A DNA stretch of 32,142 bases from IMG/VR virus record IMGVR_UViG_3300034198_022894, positions 1 through 32,142 of that record; one strand, written 5' to 3'. Each line of letters opens with the position of its first letter. Position 1 is the stretch's first letter. The position numbers were made by a program, and so were the translations under genes. The notes beneath the pieces are model-generated. The model saw only the letters and a list, made by a program, of their open reading frames with translations, searched no databases and was not told the DNA's origin. This document shows positions 5,245 to 27,168 of the stretch, piece by piece. This stretch comes from a virus.

Positions 5245-5423
5245 TTCCCATCGCCATCCCGCTTGCCATCGAAGCCGCCAAGGCTCTCGCCCCGTTCGCC
5301 CTCGACGTGCTCCGCCTGCTGAAGCAACGCGGCGAACTCACGCCCGAACAGATCGCCGAGCTGCAAGCCCTGAACGCCAAGACCGAGGCGGATTACGTCC
5401 GCGCGGCCGGCGGCCGGGAATGA
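5241..5423 (+). CDS. Small hypothetical protein, end of lysis operon
   Basis: 60 residues; start overlaps the preceding stop (ATGA). Hydrophobic N-terminal half (IPIAIPLAIEAAKALAPFAL) and a charged helical second half (TPEQIAELQALNAKTEADY). No family recognised. Its TGA stop (5421-5423) is also the first three bases of a repeat arm, so the element either supplied or replaced the end of this gene. Confidence 0.5.
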   Translation: MIPIAIPLAIEAAKALAPFALDVLRLLKQRGELTPEQIAELQALNAKTEADYVRAAGGRE

Positions 5424-5608
5424 ATCTGGAAGGCAGGAAAGCAGGAAGATCAAACACCTTGCCCGGAGCCCGGGCAAATGAGCAGACAGGGGAACGTGCC
5501 CGGACTCTGCGCAGTCGGGTAAAAGTAAACCCCGGCCGCTACCCGTCGGCGTAACAACAGCGCGGGACATTTTTGGTTCCCTTCCTGCCTTCCTGCCTTC
5601 CAAATTGA
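5421..5608. repeat. Inverted pair of 8-bp-period (GGAAGGCA) arms around a 130-bp insert
   Basis: Left arm 5421-5448 (TGAATCTGGAAGGCAGGAAA...) and right arm about 5580-5607 (...CTGCCTTCCAAATTG) are reverse complements with a few mismatches. The 130 bp between them has no convincing gene. It holds a perfect 8-bp hairpin, TTGCCCGG-AGC-CCGGGCAA (5459-5477), without a T-run. The element fills the whole gap between the gene ending at 5423 and the start at 5616. Confidence 0.8.
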
Positions 5609-5615
5609 ATTCCCA

Positions 5616-9814: not shown

Positions 9815-9904
9815 GTTGCCTTTGCGCGGTTGGGTGGATGGGCGGTCGTCGGGCTTGGTTGCCGGTCGAATGCCGGTTCAAACGGTTTCACACGGGTTGC
9901 GTTC

Positions 9905-9922
9905 TGGCACCATTTGGCACCA
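9905..9922. promoter_or_regulatory. Tandem TGGCACCA sites, candidate integrase arm-type sites
   Basis: TGGCACCATTTGGCACCA contains two identical 8-mers 10 bp apart, one helical turn. They lie 12 bases before the integrase start and about 130 bp from the attP core, where arm-type integrase sites are usual. They could equally be an autoregulatory operator for integrase. Confidence 0.4.
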
Positions 9923-9933
9923 CGCTCGACAGC

Positions 9934-11040
9934 ATGGCAGGCAAGGTCACGGTGCGAAGGGTGAAGCGGCGCGGGGAATGGCGCTGGTGCGTCGATCGCG
10001 TGGAGCAGGGGCGGCGGGTGCGGGAGTTTTTCCGCGCGGCCCAGGAGGCGGAGGCGCATGCCGTGGCGTTGCGACGGCAGCGGAGCGTGGCGGGCGATTC
10101 GTGGATCCGGCTGTCGGCGGCGGAGCGGGCCGAGCTGATCGAGGTCTATGCCGCCGCCCGGGCGCGGAATGTGTCGCTGCGGGAGGTCTGGCAGGAGTGG
10201 TGCGCGCTGGCGCCCAGCCGGGCCAAGTTGACGCCGACGCTCGCGGCGGCCGTGGCGGCCTGCCTGGAGGCGAAGCGCGCGGCCGGGCGGCGGGAGCGTT
10301 ATTTGTCCGCCCTGGCCGCGGCGCTGGGGCAGTTCATCCGGGGGCGCGAGGAACTGGCGCTGGGCAGCGTGACGCGGCTGGAGATCCAGTCGCACGTGGG
10401 CGCGGTGGCGTCGCTGCATTCGCGGGCGACGCGGCTGAATCGGCTCTCGACGCTGTTCGCCTGGGCGGTGCGCGCTGGGCATCTCGACGCCAATCCGTGC
10501 GACCGGATCGAGCGGGTGACGCCGGAGCAACGCCCGCCGCTGATCCTCACGCCCGAGCAGGCGCACCACGCGCTGGCGTTCACGCGGGACCATTGGCCGC
10601 GCTACCTGGCTTGGCTAGCCATGACCTTGCTAGCCGGCGTGCGGCCCGAGGAGGCCGAGCGGTCCGAATGGTCCGCCATTGCCCCGGGGCATGTCGTGAT
10701 CGCGGCGCAGACGAGCAAGGTGCGGTGGCGGCGCGTGGTGCCGCTGATGCCGCTGGCGGCGGAATGGCTCGCGGAAGCGCGGAAACGGGAGGCGGAATTG
10801 CCCCTGCCCGCCATCTCGCTGAAGCGGTTTCGGCGCAAGTTGCGGGATGAACTGAAGCTGCCGAAGTGGCCCGCGGACCTGCTCCGGCACACGGCGGCAA
10901 GTTACCTGCTGGCGGAGCACCAGGACGCGGGCAAGGTGGCGTCGTGGCTGGGGAATTCGGCCGGCGTGCTGCTGCGGCACTACCGGGAACTGGTCACGCG
11001 GGAGGACGCGGCGCGGTTTTGGAACCCGCAGGGAGGATGA
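9934..11040 (+). CDS. int: Tyrosine-recombinase integrase
   Basis: 368 residues from the ATG at 9934 (MAGKVTVRRVKRRGEWRW). The frame extends upstream to 9838 but that part crosses the tandem TGGCACCA sites and looks non-coding. It has a basic N-terminal domain, a SAM-like core-binding domain (~90-200) and a catalytic domain with Arg237 (AGVRPEEAERSEW), a Lys in SKVRWRRV, Arg318 in DLLRHTAAS and nucleophile Tyr350 in LRHYREL. In box II the usual His three residues before the Arg is Asp315. It catalyses site-specific integration at the adjacent attP. Its TGA stop is also the first codon of a repeat arm. Confidence 0.93.
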   Translation: MAGKVTVRRVKRRGEWRWCVDRVEQGRRVREFFRAAQEAEAHAVALRRQRSVAGDSWIRLSAAERAELIEVYAAARARNVSLREVWQEWCALAPSRAKLTPTLAAAVAACLEAKRAAGRRERYLSALAAALGQFIRGREELALGSVTRLEIQSHVGAVASLHSRATRLNRLSTLFAWAVRAGHLDANPCDRIERVTPEQRPPLILTPEQAHHALAFTRDHWPRYLAWLAMTLLAGVRPEEAERSEWSAIAPGHVVIAAQTSKVRWRRVVPLMPLAAEWLAEARKREAELPLPAISLKRFRRKLRDELKLPKWPADLLRHTAASYLLAEHQDAGKVASWLGNSAGVLLRHYRELVTREDAARFWNPQGG

Positions 11041-11065
11041 ATTTGGAAGGCAGGAAGGCAGGAAC
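11038..11065 (+). repeat. Single 8-bp-period (GGAAGGCA) arm
   Basis: TGAATTTGGAAGGCAGGAAG... (28 bp) begins with the integrase stop codon. It has no close inverted partner. The same arm is repeated in direct orientation at 11413 and 11814. Confidence 0.8.
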
Positions 11066-11071
11066 CGAAGC

Positions 11072-11410
11072 CTAGGCCGGGAAGGTGCGGACGATCTCGG
11101 ATTGGCTGAAGAAAGCGTCGCCGGGGGCGCCAGCGGTTTCGCGGATCAGGCGAATGGTCTGGCCGTCGGCGGACTTCTCGAAGTAGGTGCTGACGCGGCC
11201 GAAGGTCTGGCGCGGGGTGCCGTGCCCGGGGCGCAGGTCGTGAAGCTGCTGGGCCAGGGAGGGCGCCTGCTGGCCGAGCAAGCTGCGGATGGCGGTGGCC
11301 TGCGTGGGGCCGAACTTGGCGAGGGCGGGCAGGTCGGCCGCGTAGGCGCGCACCAGCTTGGTGGGCTCTTTCTTGGGCTGGCCGGGGCCGCGTTTGGTTG
11401 GGGTGCTCAT
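11072..11410 (-). CDS. Small hypothetical protein of the lysogeny block
   Basis: 112 residues, leftward. Basic, proline-rich start (MSTPTKRGPGQPKKEPTK, AT-hook-like GRP-type RGPGQPKK), then a helical region and SRVSTYF-like and IRLIRETAG strands. The start lies against the 85-bp repeat at 11413. Weakly DNA-binding in character. Convergent with the integrase. I do not recognise a family. Confidence 0.55.
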   Translation of the reverse strand: MSTPTKRGPGQPKKEPTKLVRAYAADLPALAKFGPTQATAIRSLLGQQAPSLAQQLHDLRPGHGTPRQTFGRVSTYFEKSADGQTIRLIRETAGAPGDAFFSQSEIVRTFPA

Positions 11411-11412
11411 GG

Positions 11413-11497
11413 GAATTTGGAAGGCAGGAAGGCAGGAACGGACCGCGCATGGCGCCGACTTCGCCCCAGCCGCAGCCGGGGCGCGTGTCGGGGTCAG
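11413..11497. repeat. 85-bp direct repeat, copy A
   Basis: Identical over all 85 bases to 11814-11898. It combines the GGAAGGCA arm (first 27 bp) with a segment holding an imperfect hairpin (CCCCAGCC...GGCTGGGG-type, around 11464-11481). It lies between two leftward genes, abutting the stop of the upstream gene. Confidence 0.95.
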
Positions 11498-11728
11498 TCA
11501 CTTGGCGCGGAAGATGGGCGCCATCGAATACTTGCCGAGGGCAAAGATAAATTCGCCGTCACTGTCCGCCTTGACCATGCAGCGACCCTCGCGGCCTTCG
11601 CCAGAGAACCGGACAAACCGGCCCTTGCGCTCGGTAATGGTGACACTGAACACGCAGTCGTAATCGCCGACGCTGCGGGCGGTGAGGGTCTGGCCGGCTT
11701 TGATTGTCTTCGCTTCGTTCGTTTGCAT
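11498..11728 (-). CDS. Small hypothetical protein with beta-rich fold
   Basis: 76 residues from the ATG at 11728; a TTG two codons earlier is the alternative. Predicted mostly beta: GQTLTARSVGDYDCVFSVTI, RFVRFSGEGREGRCMVKAD, GEFIFALGKYSMAP. No family recognised. A promoter-like -35/-10 pair ends seven bases before this ATG, implying a nearly leaderless transcript. Next to the repressor and on its strand, so probably expressed in the lysogen. Confidence 0.6.
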   Translation of the reverse strand: MQTNEAKTIKAGQTLTARSVGDYDCVFSVTITERKGRFVRFSGEGREGRCMVKADSDGEFIFALGKYSMAPIFRAK

Positions 11729-11734
11729 GGCCAA

Positions 11735-11800
11735 TACCTACACCCTGTCGGAGTTCTCGTCAACAAGTATTCCGGTTCCCGCTGCGATTTTTTCAGGGCG
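11735..11800 (-). promoter_or_regulatory. Promoter-like repeat, copy 1
   Basis: On the minus strand, TTGACG (11763-11758), a 17-bp spacer and TAGGTA (11740-11735) lie just before the ATG at 11728. The -10 is poor. The 43 bp at 11758-11800 match 12151-12193 at 41 positions. The -35 sits in a partial dyad GGAATAC-N10-GAACTCC (minus strand, 11773-11750) that is perfect in the other copy. Confidence 0.45.
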
Positions 11801-11813
11801 AACCCCGGGGGAT

Positions 11814-11898
11814 GAATTTGGAAGGCAGGAAGGCAGGAACGGACCGCGCATGGCGCCGACTTCGCCCCAGCCGCAGCCGGGGCGCGTGTCGGGGTCAG
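11814..11898. repeat. 85-bp direct repeat, copy B
   Basis: Identical to 11413-11497. Its last bases contain the stop codon (TCA on the plus strand, 11895-11897) of the leftward gene 11895-12083. Recombination between the copies would delete 401 bp, including the 76-residue gene and its promoter. Confidence 0.95.
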
Positions 11899-20967: not shown

Positions 20968-21450
20968 ATGCACCCCGAGGATCTCCAGACGCCCGCCGTC
21001 CGGCTCCGCGAGCCCGCCGTCGACTTCCCGCACGAACTCCTCGACCGCCCCGAGGACATCGCCCGCGAGGAACTCCAGGCCGTGCTCGGTCGCGCCGTCA
21101 GCCCCGAGGACACCCGCCGGCTGTTCGTCTGGCACCTCAGCCGCCAGCATGCCGACTCCGCGGCCGAGTGGACCGTCCTGGAGCGCGTCCTGCTCTGGAT
21201 CGGCGGCGCCCGGTCGGCCGACTACCGCGCCACCGGCCAGGGCGACCGCCGCCCCAGCGAGACCGAGGCGGAGATCAGCGAGCGCCGCGTCGGCCTTCGC
21301 GCCGCCATCGCCTTGGCCGAATTCGTGCCCCACGGCCAGCACGCCTACAGCACCCGCTCCCTCGCCAAGATTTTTGGCGTCAGCCACGGCGAAGTCTTCC
21401 GCCTCCGCCAAAACCTCCGCGCCATCACCCCGGCGCAAGAACCGACATGA
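20968..21450 (+). CDS. HTH-containing hypothetical protein
   Basis: 160 residues from the ATG at 20968; upstream in-frame sequence is repeat DNA. A C-terminal helix-turn-helix (STRSLAKIFGVSHGEVFRLR) follows a helical body (PEDTRRLFVWHLSRQHADSA). Possibly a regulator or DNA-packaging accessory in the insert between the terminase subunits. Its TGA begins the next element. Confidence 0.55.
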   Translation: MHPEDLQTPAVRLREPAVDFPHELLDRPEDIAREELQAVLGRAVSPEDTRRLFVWHLSRQHADSAAEWTVLERVLLWIGGARSADYRATGQGDRRPSETEAEISERRVGLRAAIALAEFVPHGQHAYSTRSLAKIFGVSHGEVFRLRQNLRAITPAQEPT

Positions 21451-21631
21451 ACAGCGAAGACGCGAAGACGCGAAGGAGAGGAGTGATCCTGGCAATGTGG
21501 GCAAGTCGCTCGGGAGCAGCCCGCCGCCGGAGTTCCGCCGGAGGTTGCACGGTTCCAGCGCCTTCTTCGCGCCTTCGCGCCTTCGCTGTTCGTTTCCCCG
21601 CTCCTAGCTCCCCGCTCCCTGCTTCCGTCCC
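21449..21631. repeat. 8-bp-period GCGAAGAC hairpin element followed by CTCCCTG arm
   Basis: Left arm 21449-21479 (GAACAGCGAAGACGCGAAG...) overlaps the stop of the preceding gene. Right arm 21563-21591 (...CTTCGCGCCTTCGCTGTTC) is its near-complement. About 80 bp lie between, with no gene. A CTCCCCGCTCCCTGCTTCC arm (21597-21625) of a different family follows at once, up to ATG 21632. This nested use of two families shows that they stack. Confidence 0.8.
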
Positions 21632-22501
21632 ATGACCCTCTTCCCCGAACTCGCCCCCGAGCCCGTCGCCAGCGCGCCGGCCGAGGCCCCGCGCCGGGCC
21701 CTGCCCGTGCCCGAGGTCTGGCCAGATTCCGTGCAGAGCATTCCCGTCCTTCGCGGCCTGGCCGACCGCGCGCCCGTGCAAGCGATCATCACCAGCCCGC
21801 CCTACTGGGCCGTCCATCGTTACACTGACCTGCCCGGCGAAGAAATTGGCTGGGAACCCACCCCTGACGAATACGCGCTGCGTCTGGCCCTCGTCTTCGC
21901 CGTGCTCCGGCGCGCCTGCCTCACCCCGCAAAGCACCCTCTGGGTCAACCTCGCCGACGTGATGAACGACGCCGAGTGGGGCATCCGCGACAAGTCCCTG
22001 CCGGAAAAGACGCTGCTCGGCCTGCCCGCCCGCTTTCTCCTGGCGATGCTCGCCCAGGGCTTTACCTGCCGCAGCGAAATCGTCTGGACCAAGACCCGCG
22101 GCCTGATCGAGAACCCGACCGACCGCCCCACGCGCACCGACGAGCGCGTCTTCCTCTTCAGTTGCGGTCCCGGCTACTACTTCGACGCCGCGGCCCTCAG
22201 CGAACCCGACGACCTCGGCGGCCGGCGCAATGGCCGCAACCAATGGGCCCTTGCGCCCGATCAGGACTCCGCCGCCTACGCCCGGCACCCGGCCATCATG
22301 CCCCGCGCCCTTGCGCAACGCTGCGTGCTCGCCGGCACGCGCCCCGGCGACCTCGTCCTCGATCCCTTCTGCGGCACCGGCACCACGCTGGCGGTCGCCT
22401 ACGCCCACGGCCGCCGCGCCCTCGGCCTCGAACTCAATCCCGCCTACGTCGCCCAAGCCCGGGCCCGCCTCGACGCCACGACCCCGGGATTCCCACTTTG
22501 A
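21632..22501 (+). CDS. DNA methyltransferase (TSPPYW, N4-cytosine/N6-adenine type)
   Basis: 289 residues. Catalytic motif IV TSPPYW at 54-59 and the AdoMet-binding motif I DPFCGTGTT at ~244-252, in that order, place it in the beta class. SPPY is typical of N4-cytosine enzymes. Between them lies a target-recognition region. No restriction endonuclease gene is adjacent, so it is likely an orphan enzyme that shields phage DNA or alters gene control. Part of the accessory insert between terminase subunits. Confidence 0.85.
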   Translation: MTLFPELAPEPVASAPAEAPRRALPVPEVWPDSVQSIPVLRGLADRAPVQAIITSPPYWAVHRYTDLPGEEIGWEPTPDEYALRLALVFAVLRRACLTPQSTLWVNLADVMNDAEWGIRDKSLPEKTLLGLPARFLLAMLAQGFTCRSEIVWTKTRGLIENPTDRPTRTDERVFLFSCGPGYYFDAAALSEPDDLGGRRNGRNQWALAPDQDSAAYARHPAIMPRALAQRCVLAGTRPGDLVLDPFCGTGTTLAVAYAHGRRALGLELNPAYVAQARARLDATTPGFPL

Positions 22502-22502
22502 T

Positions 22503-22530
22503 AAATTTGGAAGGCAGGAAAACAGGAAGG
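22503..22530 (+). repeat. Left GGAAGGCA arm of the DUF5131 cassette
   Basis: AAATTTGGAAGGCAGGAAAA... lies after the methyltransferase stop. Its exact partner is 23525-23551, 1 kb away: 24 of 25 aligned bases are complementary. Both share a CAGGAA end that differs from the usual GCAGGAA, which argues that they are one pair. Confidence 0.85.
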
Positions 22531-22540
22531 ACATCAACGC

Positions 22541-23503
22541 ATGAAAGACACGAAGATTGAATGGTGTGACAACAGTTGGAGCCCGTGGCGCGGTTGCACG
22601 AAGGTCAGCCCCGGCTGCGCGCACTGTTACGCGGAGACGTTGAGCAAACGCAACCCGGCCGTGCTGGGCCAGTGGGGCAAGGGCAAGCCGCGGGTGAAGG
22701 CGAAGAACTGGAACGAGCCCGTGAAGTGGAACAGGTCCGCACAGAGCGAATGGGACTTGGTTTCGTTCAAGAGCCCCACCGTCTTCCCGTCGCTCTGCGA
22801 CTGGCTTGACGACGAGGTGCCGATTGAGTGGCTGGCGGAGTTCCTGCAACTGGTCCACGAGACGCCGAACCTGACATGGCTGCTGCTCACGAAGCGGCCG
22901 GAGAATTGGGTTTCGCAGATCGAGTCAGCCGTGGTTTGGCTCGCGAACCGGCAAATGGAATCGGACTGGATTCCCGAAGTGCTGGTTTGGTTGCAATCGT
23001 GGCGCGACGAAGGTGTGCCCCCGACCAACGTCTGGGTCGGCACGTCCGTAGAAGACCAGCAACGGGCCGACGAGCGCATCCCCGAACTGCTCAAGATTCC
23101 GGCGCGTGGGCGGTTCCTGAGCCTGGAGCCGCTGCTTGGGCCGGTGGATGTTCACCGGTGGCTCCGTCCACGGTGGTCGGAAACACTGACCGAGCGGAAC
23201 ACCCGGCCACTGGAATCCGAATGTCTCGACTGGCTCATCATCGGCGGCGAGAGCGGCGGCGGCTCCCGACCGTGCAACGTGGAGTGGATTCGCAGCCTCG
23301 TCGCCCAAGGCAAGGTTGGCGGCGCGGCGACGTTCGTGAAGCAGTTGGGGGCAATGCCTGTCGGTCCGACTCCAGAGGTTCGCGGGCGAGTGGGCTGGGT
23401 GGATGCCGAATGGAAACTGAACCACCCCAAGGGCGGCGACCCGGCCGAGTGGCCCGAAGACTTGCGCGTGCGACAGTTTCCGCAATTCGCTCCCCGCTCC
23501 TAG
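22541..23503 (+). CDS. Phage Gp37/Gp68-like protein, DUF5131 family
   Basis: 320 residues. The signature is near the start: IEWCDNSWSPWRGCTKVSPG, then CAHCYAE, giving a C-x6-C-x2-C cluster (a three-Cys motif). Other family features are LLTKRPENW, NVWVGTSVEDQQRADERIPE and LDWLIIGGESGGGSRP. This family is widespread in phages; its function is unsettled and a metal- or iron-sulphur-binding enzyme role has been suggested. It sits exactly between two inverted GGAAGGCA arms and its codon choice looks less GC-biased than the terminase gene, so transfer as a cassette is plausible. Confidence 0.85.
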   Translation: MKDTKIEWCDNSWSPWRGCTKVSPGCAHCYAETLSKRNPAVLGQWGKGKPRVKAKNWNEPVKWNRSAQSEWDLVSFKSPTVFPSLCDWLDDEVPIEWLAEFLQLVHETPNLTWLLLTKRPENWVSQIESAVVWLANRQMESDWIPEVLVWLQSWRDEGVPPTNVWVGTSVEDQQRADERIPELLKIPARGRFLSLEPLLGPVDVHRWLRPRWSETLTERNTRPLESECLDWLIIGGESGGGSRPCNVEWIRSLVAQGKVGGAATFVKQLGAMPVGPTPEVRGRVGWVDAEWKLNHPKGGDPAEWPEDLRVRQFPQFAPRS

Positions 23504-23551
23504 CTCCCCGCTCCCTGCTGCCTGTTCCTGATTTCCTGCCTTCCAAATTCA
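23490..23551. repeat. CTCCCTG arm plus right GGAAGGCA arm before TerL
   Basis: Tandem CTCCCCGCTC units (23490-23528), which include the last codons of the DUF5131 gene, run into the right arm TTCCTGATTTCCTGCCTTCC... (23525-23551). The final CA adjoins ATG 23552 of TerL. No Shine-Dalgarno sequence is left in front of TerL. Confidence 0.8.
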
Positions 23552-25318
23552 ATGTCTTCGCTCCCCGCCCCTCGCTTTATTGGCACCCTGGAATGGGCCG
23601 AGCGCCACCTGCGCGTCGGCGACGGCGCGTTTCGGGCGGCCGACTTCCCCTGGCTCGGGCCCATTGCCCGCGAGGTCGACCGCCGCCGCGGCTGCACGTT
23701 CGGCCTCATGTTCCCGCCGCAGGTCTTCAAGACCCTGTTCCTGCAGATGCGCGCGCTCCGCAACATCGCCGTCGAGCCCGGCCGCCAGCTCTTCTACTGC
23801 CTCAACGGCAAGGACGCCGCCGATCTCGCCGACGAAAAGCTCTGCCCCCTGCGCGACAGCGTGCCCGCCGTCATGGCCCACTTCCCGCACGATCCCGATG
23901 CGCGCGGCGGCAAGCAGATCTGGAAAGCCATCGACGCGCCCTTCAGCCTGTTGGGCGCCGAAAATCGCAACCATCGCAACAGCCGCTCCGGCCGCACCAT
24001 CTACCTCGACGAGCCCTGGCAATTCGAGCCCGGCTGGATCCCCGAGATCATCGCCCGGTCCGATTCCTACCAATGGCAGCGCCAGATCATCCTCGCCACG
24101 ACCGCCCCGAGCGTCGACGACGAGGTCGATGTCCTCTGGCGCACGTCGAGTCAGATGAATTGGCACGTCGTCTGCCTGCACTGCCGCGAGCGCGTGCCGC
24201 TGGAATTCGGCGAACCCGATTCAACCGGCGGCATCAAGTGGGACAGCGACGAGCACACCCGCGAGCCCGACGGCTCCTGGAAGATCGAGGTCGCGAAGCT
24301 CACCGCCCGCTGGCATTGCCCCGCGTGCAATCAGGTCACGCTCTACGATCCCAAGACCCTCCGCGAACTCAATGACCCCGCCCGCGGCGCCGGCTACGTG
24401 CAGGGCAATCCCGCGCCCGACCCGCAGGTCCACTTCTGGCGCGGCAACGCCTTCCTCATGCGCGACTGGCGCCAGCTCGTCGGCGAATGGCTGGCGGCCT
24501 GCAACGCCAAGCGCCGCGGCAGCCTGGAGGCCACCGAGGACTTCTACCGCAAGAAACGCGTCGAGTCCTGGGATCCCATGAAGGTCACGCGCCGCACGAA
24601 CGACCTACCCGTGGGCGATTACGACCTCGGCGATCCGTGGCCCGATGAGGGCAAGATGGCCGACGGCGCCCCGATGCGTTTCCTCTGGGTCGACGTGCAG
24701 CGCGATCACTTCTGGGCCGTCGCCCGGCAATGGAGCCCCAACGCGCAAAGCCGCCTGCTGCATTTCGAGCGCCTCTGGGAAGGCAGCCAGATCGAGGCCC
24801 TGCGCAAGCGGTTGGACATCCCGGCGAATCACGTCGTGCTCGACGAGGCTTACAACGCCGACCTCGTCCACCAGATCTGCACCGCCTACCATTTCCTCTG
24901 CGCGAATGGCGTCTCGGCCCGGGCCTTCCCGCATCACGACGGCGTGCGCCGCATCTTCGGCGAGCCGCGCACGATCGACCCCTTCCTCGGCCGGTCGAAT
25001 CAGGGCATGCAGTGGTGCGTGGGCTTCCACTACGCGTCCGAGGGCGCCAAGGACCGCCTCGACACGCTCCGCCAGGCCCGCAGCGCCGACGGCAAACCGC
25101 TCTGGACCATTGCCCGGAACTCGCCCAGCGAATACGTCGAGCAAGCCTACGCCGAGGCGAAGATCCGCAAGCGCCACCCGAAGAACAACGGCTGGTTCTA
25201 CGAATGGAAGAAGCTCCGCCCCGACAACCACGCCTTCGACATGGAATGCGGCCAGGTGATCAGCGCCAGCATGTGCGGCCTGCTCACCGCGACCAGCACC
25301 GCCGAGAGTGACGAATGA
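23552..25318 (+). CDS. terL: Terminase large subunit (lambda GpA type)
   Basis: 588 residues. ATPase half: a degenerate Walker A PPQVFKT (Lys60-Thr61), Walker B-like TIYLDEP (Asp153, Glu154) and a LATTAP coupling motif (~181-186). Two cysteine pairs (CLHC 208-211, CPAC 256-259) suggest a structural zinc as in GpA proteins. Nuclease half: FLWVDVQRDHFW and VVLDEAYNAD supply acidic residues. It cuts and translocates DNA into the procapsid via the portal at 27169. Its start abuts a repeat, and its TGA begins another. Confidence 0.92.
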   Translation: MSSLPAPRFIGTLEWAERHLRVGDGAFRAADFPWLGPIAREVDRRRGCTFGLMFPPQVFKTLFLQMRALRNIAVEPGRQLFYCLNGKDAADLADEKLCPLRDSVPAVMAHFPHDPDARGGKQIWKAIDAPFSLLGAENRNHRNSRSGRTIYLDEPWQFEPGWIPEIIARSDSYQWQRQIILATTAPSVDDEVDVLWRTSSQMNWHVVCLHCRERVPLEFGEPDSTGGIKWDSDEHTREPDGSWKIEVAKLTARWHCPACNQVTLYDPKTLRELNDPARGAGYVQGNPAPDPQVHFWRGNAFLMRDWRQLVGEWLAACNAKRRGSLEATEDFYRKKRVESWDPMKVTRRTNDLPVGDYDLGDPWPDEGKMADGAPMRFLWVDVQRDHFWAVARQWSPNAQSRLLHFERLWEGSQIEALRKRLDIPANHVVLDEAYNADLVHQICTAYHFLCANGVSARAFPHHDGVRRIFGEPRTIDPFLGRSNQGMQWCVGFHYASEGAKDRLDTLRQARSADGKPLWTIARNSPSEYVEQAYAEAKIRKRHPKNNGWFYEWKKLRPDNHAFDMECGQVISASMCGLLTATSTAESDE

Positions 25319-25429
25319 AGAAGGCAGAATGCAGAATGCAGAATGAAAAGGCGGCCGGCCCGCTGGGTTTCTGCATTCTTCCTTCTCCCTTCTGCCTTTG
25401 CGCCACCATGGACGGCGGCCGCGTAGGGC
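25316..25429. repeat. 7-bp-period hairpin element plus CCACCATGGACGGC block
   Basis: Left arm 25316-25348 (TGAAGAAGGCAGAATGCAG...) contains the TerL stop. Right arm 25371-25400 (...TTCCTTCTCCCTTCTGCC) follows a GC-rich loop. The block CCACCATGGACGGC (25403-25416) and GGCCGCGTAGGGC run straight into ATG 25430. The element fills the entire TerL-gpW gap. Confidence 0.85.
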
Positions 25430-25702: not shown

Positions 25703-25714
25703 CACCCGGAAAAA

Positions 25715-25793
25715 ATGAATTTGGAAGTCAGGAAAGCAGGAACGGGGACCAATCTTCCGGGGTATTTTCCTGCCTTCCTGCCTTCCAGATTCA
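25715..25793. repeat. Inverted pair of GGAAGGCA arms (compact hairpin)
   Basis: Left arm 25715-25742 (TGAATTTGGAAGTCAGG...) and right arm 25767-25793 (...CTGCCTTCCAGATTCA), with about 24 nt between; three mismatches. This is the tightest pair and could fold into a long mRNA hairpin. It lies between gpW and the metallophosphoesterase. Confidence 0.85.
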
Positions 25794-25803
25794 ATGCCCT
25801 GCC

Positions 25804-26748
25804 ATGCCCTCGCTGACCTCCAGCGCCACGAAAAGTGAAGTGACCAGACTGCGGGCCCGCTTGGCGACCGTCGAGCGGCAGCACGCCGCGGCGGTCGATG
25901 CCCTGGCCAAGGCCCGCTCCGCCCGCGTCACGCTGCCCACGGTCCGGCCCCGGGCCAAGCTCCGCGGCGATACCATCGAGGTCATGGTCAGCGACATTCA
26001 CGGCAACAAGCACGAGCCCGGCGCCCTGGCCGCCTTCCTGGCGGACCTCGCGGTCATTAAGCCGAACCGCGTCTTCCTCGGCGGCGACATCCTAGATTGC
26101 GGCGGCTTTCTGGCGGAACATCATACGCTCGGCTACGTCGCCGAGACCGCCGACAGCTACGAGGAAGACGTCGCCGCGACCAACCTGATCCTGTCCAAGA
26201 TCCAGCACGAATCCGGCGACGCCGACTGTCATTACCTCGAAGGCAATCACGAATGGCGCGTCGAGCGGTGGGCCGTCACGCAACGGCTCGCGCATCACAA
26301 GGACACCGAAATGCTCCGGCGCACCTTCGCCGCCGAACACGTCCTCGAACTCAAGCGGCGCGGCATCACGTATTACCGCCAAGGCGAATTGCACGGCGAC
26401 TGCCGCGTCCCCGGCTGGGTCAAGTGGGGCAAGCTCTTCTACGTCCACAAGCTCAGCAATGCCAAGGACGCGGCCGGTGCCGCCATTGGCAAGACCGCGG
26501 CGAACGTTGTCTTCTTCGACACCCATCGGGCCGCCTTCGCCCCGCGGCACCTCCCCGGCGTCGGCCTGATCTCCGCGTGGAATCCCGGCTGTCTCTGCCG
26601 CCGGCAGCCCCTCTGGATGAACACCAACCCTACCGGCTGGAACCACGGCTACCTCGTGCGCTTCATCTCGCACACCGGCCTTTTCCAAATGGTAAACGTC
26701 TCCATCGAGCACGGCCGCAGCTTCGGCGGCGCCATGTTCCACCGCTGA
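25804..26748 (+). CDS. Calcineurin-like metallophosphoesterase
   Basis: 314 residues. A short coiled coil (~10-38) precedes the catalytic domain: SDIHGN (Asp64, His66), GGDILD (Asp95) and GNHEW (Asn148, His149), the metal-binding signature of the family. A late DTHRA (~238-242) may replace the usual GHTH. Substrate unknown; phage members may act on nucleic-acid ends or nucleotides. It lies inside the otherwise lambda-like head operon between gpW and portal, with repeats on both sides, and therefore looks like an inserted accessory gene. An ATG at 25794 leads to an early stop. Confidence 0.85.
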   Translation: MPSLTSSATKSEVTRLRARLATVERQHAAAVDALAKARSARVTLPTVRPRAKLRGDTIEVMVSDIHGNKHEPGALAAFLADLAVIKPNRVFLGGDILDCGGFLAEHHTLGYVAETADSYEEDVAATNLILSKIQHESGDADCHYLEGNHEWRVERWAVTQRLAHHKDTEMLRRTFAAEHVLELKRRGITYYRQGELHGDCRVPGWVKWGKLFYVHKLSNAKDAAGAAIGKTAANVVFFDTHRAAFAPRHLPGVGLISAWNPGCLCRRQPLWMNTNPTGWNHGYLVRFISHTGLFQMVNVSIEHGRSFGGAMFHR

Positions 26749-26753
26749 ACCGC

Positions 26754-26990
26754 ATGGGCCTGCTCAAGCAACATGCCGCCCCGCGGCCTGACCGCGTGCC
26801 AAAAGGCTTGCTGACCAGCGAGCAATGGGCCGCGATAGAGCAACTCAGCCCGATCACCGCCCAGAAAATGCTGCGCCGCCTCGTGAGGTCGGGCAAATGG
26901 ATCAGTCGCGCTTACCGCATCCCCTGTGGCGGCGTCATCCGCCCCGTGCCGCATTACGCGCCCAAGAAAGCGGGGGGCAAGGCCGGATGA
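26754..26990 (+). CDS. Small winged-helix-like basic protein
   Basis: 78 residues, five bases after the phosphoesterase stop. Helices LLTSEQWAAIEQLSPITAQK and MLRRLVRSGKWISRAYR resemble a small winged-helix domain, with a basic C-terminus. Probably acquired together with the phosphoesterase. Its TGA (26988-26990) is the first codon of the next repeat arm. Confidence 0.55.
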   Translation: MGLLKQHAAPRPDRVPKGLLTSEQWAAIEQLSPITAQKMLRRLVRSGKWISRAYRIPCGGVIRPVPHYAPKKAGGKAG

Positions 26991-27168
26991 ATTTGGAAGG
27001 TAGGAAAGCAGGAACAGCCGAGAGCGCGGAGCCGGTGCGGATCACGCTCGGCGATTTGACCGGCCTGATTCCCCTTCCTGCCTTCCTGCCTTCCAGATTG
27101 ATTTTCTTCGCGCCTTCGCCCCTTCGCTGTTCAATCCGCGGCCACCATGGACGGCCGCCGCGCTAGGC
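26988..27168. repeat. Stacked GGAAGGCA hairpin, GCGAAGAC right arm and CCACCATGGACGGC block
   Basis: Left arm 26988-27015, right arm 27074-27101 (GGAAGGCA family), 58 bp apart. Next comes a right arm of the GCGAAGAC family (27104-27133), then CCACCATGGACGGC (27142-27155) and CGCTAGGC up to ATG 27169. Three element types occupy the whole 178-bp gap before the portal. No gene inside. Confidence 0.85.

Follow-up and report, generated by a model that had tools for sequence, protein, structure and literature searches.

Host-type palindromic repeats as likely exchange sites for accessory genes in phages that probably infect Verrucomicrobiota

A gene of the DUF5131 family lies between two conserved genes of the virus record IMGVR_UViG_3300034198_022894, which is 32,142 nucleotides long (hereafter, the window), and it is enclosed by a pair of inverted repeats. 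Are these repeats the two ends of a mobile unit that carries the gene, or do they belong to the junction in which the gene sits? The left arm (A+, 22503-22530, plus strand) begins directly after the stop codon of a DNA N6/N4 methyltransferase gene (21632-22501, plus strand; PF01555, E 7.2e-34) and is kept in all the related contigs that span this edge. The right arm (A-, 23525-23551, minus strand) ends at the start codon of the gene for the terminase large subunit (TerL, GpA type; 23552-25318, plus strand; PF05876, E 3.9e-18). The first-pass annotation had described the arms as complementary at 24 of 25 bases, and arm comparison in the window bore this out: AATTTGGAAGGCAGGAAAACAGGAA, starting at 22504, matches the reverse complement of AATTTGGAAGGCAGGAAATCAGGAA, ending at 23549, at 24 of 25 positions. 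This is the sole inverted repeat of at least 24/25 within 2 kb in the window, and the best match in each of 12 dinucleotide shuffles reached 19-21/25. The annotation had also taken the CAGGAA-end variant of the arms (AACAGGAA on the left, ATCAGGAA on the right) to be private to this pair. The variant is indeed unique in the window, but in relatives arms of other slots, and arms around other cargo, also end in AACAGGAA or ATCAGGAA; because the variant ends recur there, sharing them does not prove that the two arms are ends belonging to each other alone.

The window contains several families of degenerate tandem octamers or heptamers, designated A to D, and the arms belong to family A, which has 11 copies in the 32 kb. 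A family D repeat, GCTCCCCGCTCCTAGCTCCCCGCTCCCTGCT (23489-23520), lies inside the right edge and is common to relatives with another cargo. An Rfam search of the window and of a 150-nt interior described below returned no family, and the exact repeat string had no match in the literature searched. Three further A+ arms follow the integrase gene in direct order, on the plus strand (11033-11898; at 11040, 11414 and 11815). The 85 nt from 11413 are identical to those from 11814, and a 401-bp tandem duplication was dropped as an explanation since the identity spans only these 85 nt.

Nine contigs (L008-L016) encode a TerL ∼98% identical to that of the window, and we compared the window with seven of them (L008-L014, genomes G001-G007), all spanning the methyltransferase-TerL junction. 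Both A+ after the methyltransferase stop codon and A- before TerL were kept in the window and in all of G001-G007, while the cargo differed: DUF5131 in the window, an 85-aa ORF in G001-G003, QueC (PF06508, E 2.3e-44) together with a phrog_15826 protein in G004, G006 and G007, and an 86-aa ORF in G005, that is, four independent cargo alleles only, all from metagenome contigs. Nucleotide homology ends at 22528 and restarts at 23490 or 23525, which are the inner arm edges; in G005 the homology edges are 22555 and 23561. Since relatives keep both arms around other cargos and homology breaks at the inner edges, the arms mark a slot, as opposed to a transposon with DUF5131 as its fixed content. In the right arm, the inner half varies with the cargo (TTCCTGCC in G004, G006 and G007 versus TTCCTGAT) while the outer half is constant, and the exchange point is therefore placed inside the arm. 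The 1.05-kb unit proposed in the first-pass annotation thus holds as a gene cassette with the arms as its borders, between which whole genes are swapped exactly; it is disfavoured as one mobile unit with the arms as its two ends, given that the arms stay when the gene differs and outer letters stay while interiors move. As the same pair brackets a slot holding four different gene sets, the repeats appear to work as plug-in sockets. We consider it likely that the arms delimit a cargo slot, host-type palindromic repeats having been seeded into phage junctions where they serve as exchange sites for accessory genes.

Some cargo ORFs draw on repeat sequence. Those starting with M(S/I)N(D/H)QGPTPRTD begin inside another repeat, AATGACCAATGAGCAATGACC (G001:5013-5516, G005:2016-2357 and G006:6052-6701), and several translate the right arm as ...PDFLPSKF, so that the repeats supply coding sequence.

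Chance or faulty assembly could in principle produce such a picture, with degenerate tandem octamers mimicking inverted repeats and misassembly at repeats mimicking cargo swaps; all the contigs are metagenomic, and what they share as arms is short. We regard this as very improbable. Shuffling never gave more than 21 matches, compared with the 24/25 observed, a given cargo allele turns up with identical junctions under different metagenome ids (L011, L013 and L014; L009 and L010), and 25-bp repeats are short compared with usual read lengths.

The cargo gene itself (22541-23503, plus strand) encodes 320 aa (PF07505, E 3.6e-62; phrog_2045, E 4.6e-72); the ORF is intact and the PF07505 match covers residues 4-271, most of the domain. 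Its C-x6-C-x2-C motif (C19, C26 and C29) is invariant in 33 sequences. A PDB fold search with a confident model (mean pLDDT 88) gave no match at E ≤ 0.001, for which reason we assign no function to DUF5131, and nothing on this family was found in the literature searched. Among 289 Verrucomicrobia genomes there were four DUF5131 matches, with 47-56% identity. Flanking inverted repeats were found at none of 22 DUF5131 relatives (38-52% identity), whose scores fell in the shuffle range; the score at the window locus has z = 13.5. This result indicates that the arms belong to the phage junction and that DUF5131 is one of several cargos. It also goes against the idea that the same arm-DUF5131-arm unit recurs at other loci, of which no case was found. 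The reading of the gene as a moron is correct insofar as it is an extra gene between conserved genes; a promoter and terminator of its own, however, were not found in a simple scan. The promoter scan, of the sigma-70 type, which may not be that of the host, gave no match at the cassette, and the intrinsic-terminator scan gave hits on the other strand only, near shuffle level. With QueC and DNA methyltransferases among the cargo families, it is probable that the slots house DNA-modification and counter-defence genes; a role of this kind for DUF5131 is a guess from the genes in sister slots.

If the arms are exchange sites, how far does the pattern extend beyond this junction? Comparison of the window with ten relatives yielded 35 clusters of homology breakpoints, 21 of them at most 20 nt from an A-D repeat. 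Only 4.2% of the window lies that close to a repeat; random placement put a mean of 1.46 clusters near an arm, and none of 10,000 draws reached 21. The other 14 clusters lie away from arms, mostly in the tail-fibre and lysogeny regions. In the half of the window from 17.2 to 32 kb every breakpoint fell at or beside an armed junction and none at unarmed gene junctions. In 28 viral contigs, neighbouring A arms with a spacing below 1.5 kb were oriented +/- in 50 cases, -/+ in 13, ++ in 8 and -- in 8. A CCACCATGGACGG-like sequence recurs at or near gene starts (62, 5828, 25399, 27138 and 29583 in the window), and its copies coincide with some exchange breakpoints.

Several other junctions proved to be slots as well. 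Slot X (5416-5613) consists of A+, a 150-nt interior and A- in the window; relatives have only 39 nt there, a C-family hairpin (G016 and G021) or nothing, as in G010, where 3 nt separate the two genes. The 150-nt interior (at 5423-5606) is 91% identical to an interior that lies between the equivalents of window positions 25743 and 27066 in G002, G007 and G009, and that is placed in the same way in G003 and G004. This place is slot Y, which in the window (25711-25796) is an A+/A- hairpin with a 40-nt interior. The outer arm letters follow the slot and not the interior: they are ATGAATCTGG...CCAAATTGAATT at slot X in the window, G002 and G006, and ATGAATTTGG...CCAGATTGATCC at slot Y. A metallophosphoesterase gene (25804-26748, plus strand) lies between two A+/A- units and is absent from this place in G002. 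Slot Z (26983-27125) comprises A+/A- and a C block; its 76-nt interior (26990-27099) starts like a 799-nt methyltransferase cargo that occupies a different slot in G002 (G002:26919-27751). The translation of that cargo contains a run of nine Cys followed by four Gly, which might reflect a tract prone to slippage or else faulty assembly. Upstream of the methyltransferase gene, a C+/C- hairpin with a D repeat (21444-21630) is replaced in relatives by other arm- or repeat-bounded cargo. After TerL (25313-25398), the window and G002 have a family-B hairpin, where G001 and G004-G007 have an ORF cargo of 308-616 nt between A arms. At this last slot and at slot Z the exchanged stretch reaches beyond the two arms, its ends lying in further repeats held in common, e.g. 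CCACCATGGACGG, which means that the A arms are not the sole exchange points. As RNA, the slot-changing interior at 5440-5589 folds more stably than its shuffled versions (z = -2.8), and the arms pair to close the structure; cargo may thus include a small RNA.

These data bear on two other explanations. According to the first, the arms act at gene junctions in transcription, translation or RNA stability, and the turnover of cargo there is ordinary phage mosaicism. Their position at stop and start codons would fit, as would the purine-rich left arm, which sometimes supplies an ATG and may act as a ribosome-binding region for the cargo gene, and the folding of the slot X unit. Nevertheless, the breakpoints lie at the inner arm edge, those of the 17.2-32 kb half all avoid unarmed junctions, and interiors move between non-homologous slots that have only arms in common, so that we hold this explanation to be improbable, weakened as it is by the breakpoint test.

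According to the second, arm-gene-arm is a non-autonomous transposon that moves as a whole, its arms being terminal inverted repeats and its mobilisation being due to an enzyme that the host provides in trans, possibly the GxxExxY nuclease discussed below. Arms matching at 24/25 are what a transposon or MITE would have at its termini, and slot X is empty in G010. On the other hand, the outer arm letters of slots X and Y stay though the interior is exchanged, so the ends do not move, and DUF5131 with arms was not found elsewhere. Neither was a target-site duplication demonstrated, the sole empty junction, slot X in G010, being too diverged to judge; an empty methyltransferase-TerL site with the flanks seen here, as the first-pass annotation had envisaged, was not found. 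The presence of the same interior in different slots with slot-bound outer letters favours recombination inside the arms over transposition of the whole unit, which we rate as unlikely.

We then considered where such repeats come from. Among named phages, the closest TerL is that of Verrucomicrobia phage P8625 (28.5% identity), whose gene order is methyltransferase, two genes, TerL, two genes and portal; a scan of P8625 for A-D arms gave no paired arms and single weak matches to A and B only. TerL relatives in prophages of Verrucomicrobia genomes reach 24-29% identity only. The exact A arm recurs in Verrucomicrobia MAGs, the richer of which have 7-22 copies each (genome-contig scan), and a hand count of these arms gave 18 close +/- pairs (<200 bp) and no close -/+ pair. 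Phage slots share the chromosomal neighbour orders A- C- and C+ A+. Nested palindromes of the form C+ A+ loop A- C- were seen in Verrucomicrobia chromosomes at L143:1455-1605 and L181:2040-2185. The exact family-B repeat is present in 2 of the 289 Verrucomicrobia genomes, so family B is not shown to be host-wide. The A arms and nested hairpins in chromosomes support the view that the host belongs to Verrucomicrobia and that the repeats are of host type in origin, although they do not fix the direction of transfer, and the phage group probably infects Verrucomicrobiota. It is also probably temperate: the group has a tyrosine integrase, in the window a phage-type integrase (phrog_1) at 9838-11040.

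Exchange at arm-bounded slots could proceed in three steps. Palindromes that are normally short hairpins, perhaps mobilised in the host, would lodge between adjacent phage genes; the identity of phage and chromosomal hairpins and the empty slot X junction are the basis for this step, the route of entry being our conjecture. Recombination inside the arms would then swap the interior for whole genes from other slots or from arm-sharing phages, leaving the outer arm parts in place, as suggested by breakpoints at arms, swapped cargo, interiors present in more than one slot and slot-bound outer letters. In lysogens or mixed infections, homologous or annealing-type recombination acting on arms of 25-30 bp might accomplish this. 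Finally, the cargo would be read with its neighbours from upstream transcription, and its translation may be aided by the left arm, which is rich in purines and in some copies includes an ATG. Among the ORFs scanned (11-17 kb in part), no arm-preferring recombinase was identified and no RecT/ERF-type gene was recognised.

Whole-gene exchange at defined sites has precedents. Integron gene cassettes are exchanged as units at recombination sites; integrons hold them in one array, whereas the phage slots are single-cargo and found at many junctions. In Neisseria, at minimal mobile elements (MMEs) one pair of conserved genes holds alternative whole-gene cassettes, incorporated solely by homologous recombination in flanking sequence, and NIME/dRS3 are short inverted repeats between genes to which a role in promoting recombination is ascribed (PMC3898611). 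With four cargos between methyltransferase and TerL, our locus behaves like an MME; its breakpoints lie in 25-bp arms and not in genes. Unlike in Neisseria, here the genomes are those of phages, the repeats bound the cassette in inverted orientation and no natural transformation is implied, and the arm sequence is unlike the dRS3 pattern ATTCCC(N8)GGGAAT. The PeSL cassettes of T4-type phages are repeated intergenic stem-loop motifs linked to gene shuffling (Arbiol 2010 and Comeau 2014, as cited in PMC4503421 and PMC3950731). PeSLs combine an early promoter and a stem loop beside genes, in contrast to the phage arms, which are host-type repeats that enclose a gene and show no match to a sigma-70 promoter, although sigma-70 may not be the promoter type of the host. 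Host-type repeats serving as standard connectors at many junctions would provide a sequence-level mechanism for accessory-gene exchange among phages of an almost uncultured phylum.

Arms of this style also accompany a chromosomal gene family. Genes for GxxExxY nucleases (PD-(D/E)XK, PF13366) were present, one to four per genome, in 13 of the 13 A-containing Verrucomicrobia genomes searched. Inverted repeats with a score of at least 13 flanked 20 of their 23 testable GxxExxY genes (median score 21), a rate that may not hold elsewhere because the genomes were chosen for containing A arms. Among 182 control ORFs, 18 reached the same cut-off (median score 10; Fisher p 1.6e-14), as did 1 of 20 stricter isolated control genes. 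The arm families differ among GxxExxY loci and share the tandem-unit style (including loci L364-L387). Where dispersal was measured, in two genomes, the family of arms around the GxxExxY gene proved to be scattered, with 184 copies in G028, mostly hairpins of ∼138 bp, and 24 copies in G039; the reversed control pattern gave no match in either search. One GxxExxY gene has A arms: at locus L187 the order is a DUF485 gene, an A+/A- hairpin, the GxxExxY gene (L187:2081-2640; TIGR04256, E 2.6e-33; PF13366, E 5.1e-33), another A- arm and a sodium:solute symporter gene. DUF485 and sodium:solute symporter genes are usually neighbours.

The excess of flanked genes over both controls, the dispersal in both genomes and the A-armed gene at L187 all speak for transposition of arm-bounded units; against it, none of the 28 virus records encodes PF13366/GxxExxY, and recombination inside the arms remains our preferred reading for the phage slots. 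The bracketed GxxExxY/PDDEXK_3 genes possibly form an undescribed mobile element. More tentatively, the arms might constitute an undescribed class of mobile palindromic elements of Verrucomicrobiota, having as usual cargo the GxxExxY nuclease as presumed mobiliser, along with many gene-free hairpins, whose ends phages captured as sockets for counter-defence genes. REPtrons and TIRtrons offer a parallel: their REP or TIR palindromes, associated with IS200/IS605-like tyrosine transposases, are high-copy and some flank the enzyme gene (PMC3733652). Our arms are likewise high-copy short chromosomal palindromes, some of which flank an enzyme gene; however, the arm consensus TGAATYTGGAAGGCAGGAARGCAGGAA has no GTAG or CGTC tag, and the bracketed gene is the PD-(D/E)XK GxxExxY gene instead of a tyrosine transposase. 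The GxxExxY family, scarcely mentioned by name in the literature searched, gains a testable lead to its function, being nearly always bracketed by inverted repeats in these genomes. In another Verrucomicrobia contig (L158:92-1235), A+ and A- lie ∼1.1 kb apart and enclose an alpha/beta hydrolase-like ORF on the opposite strand; this may be a second case of an arm-gene-arm unit in a chromosome.
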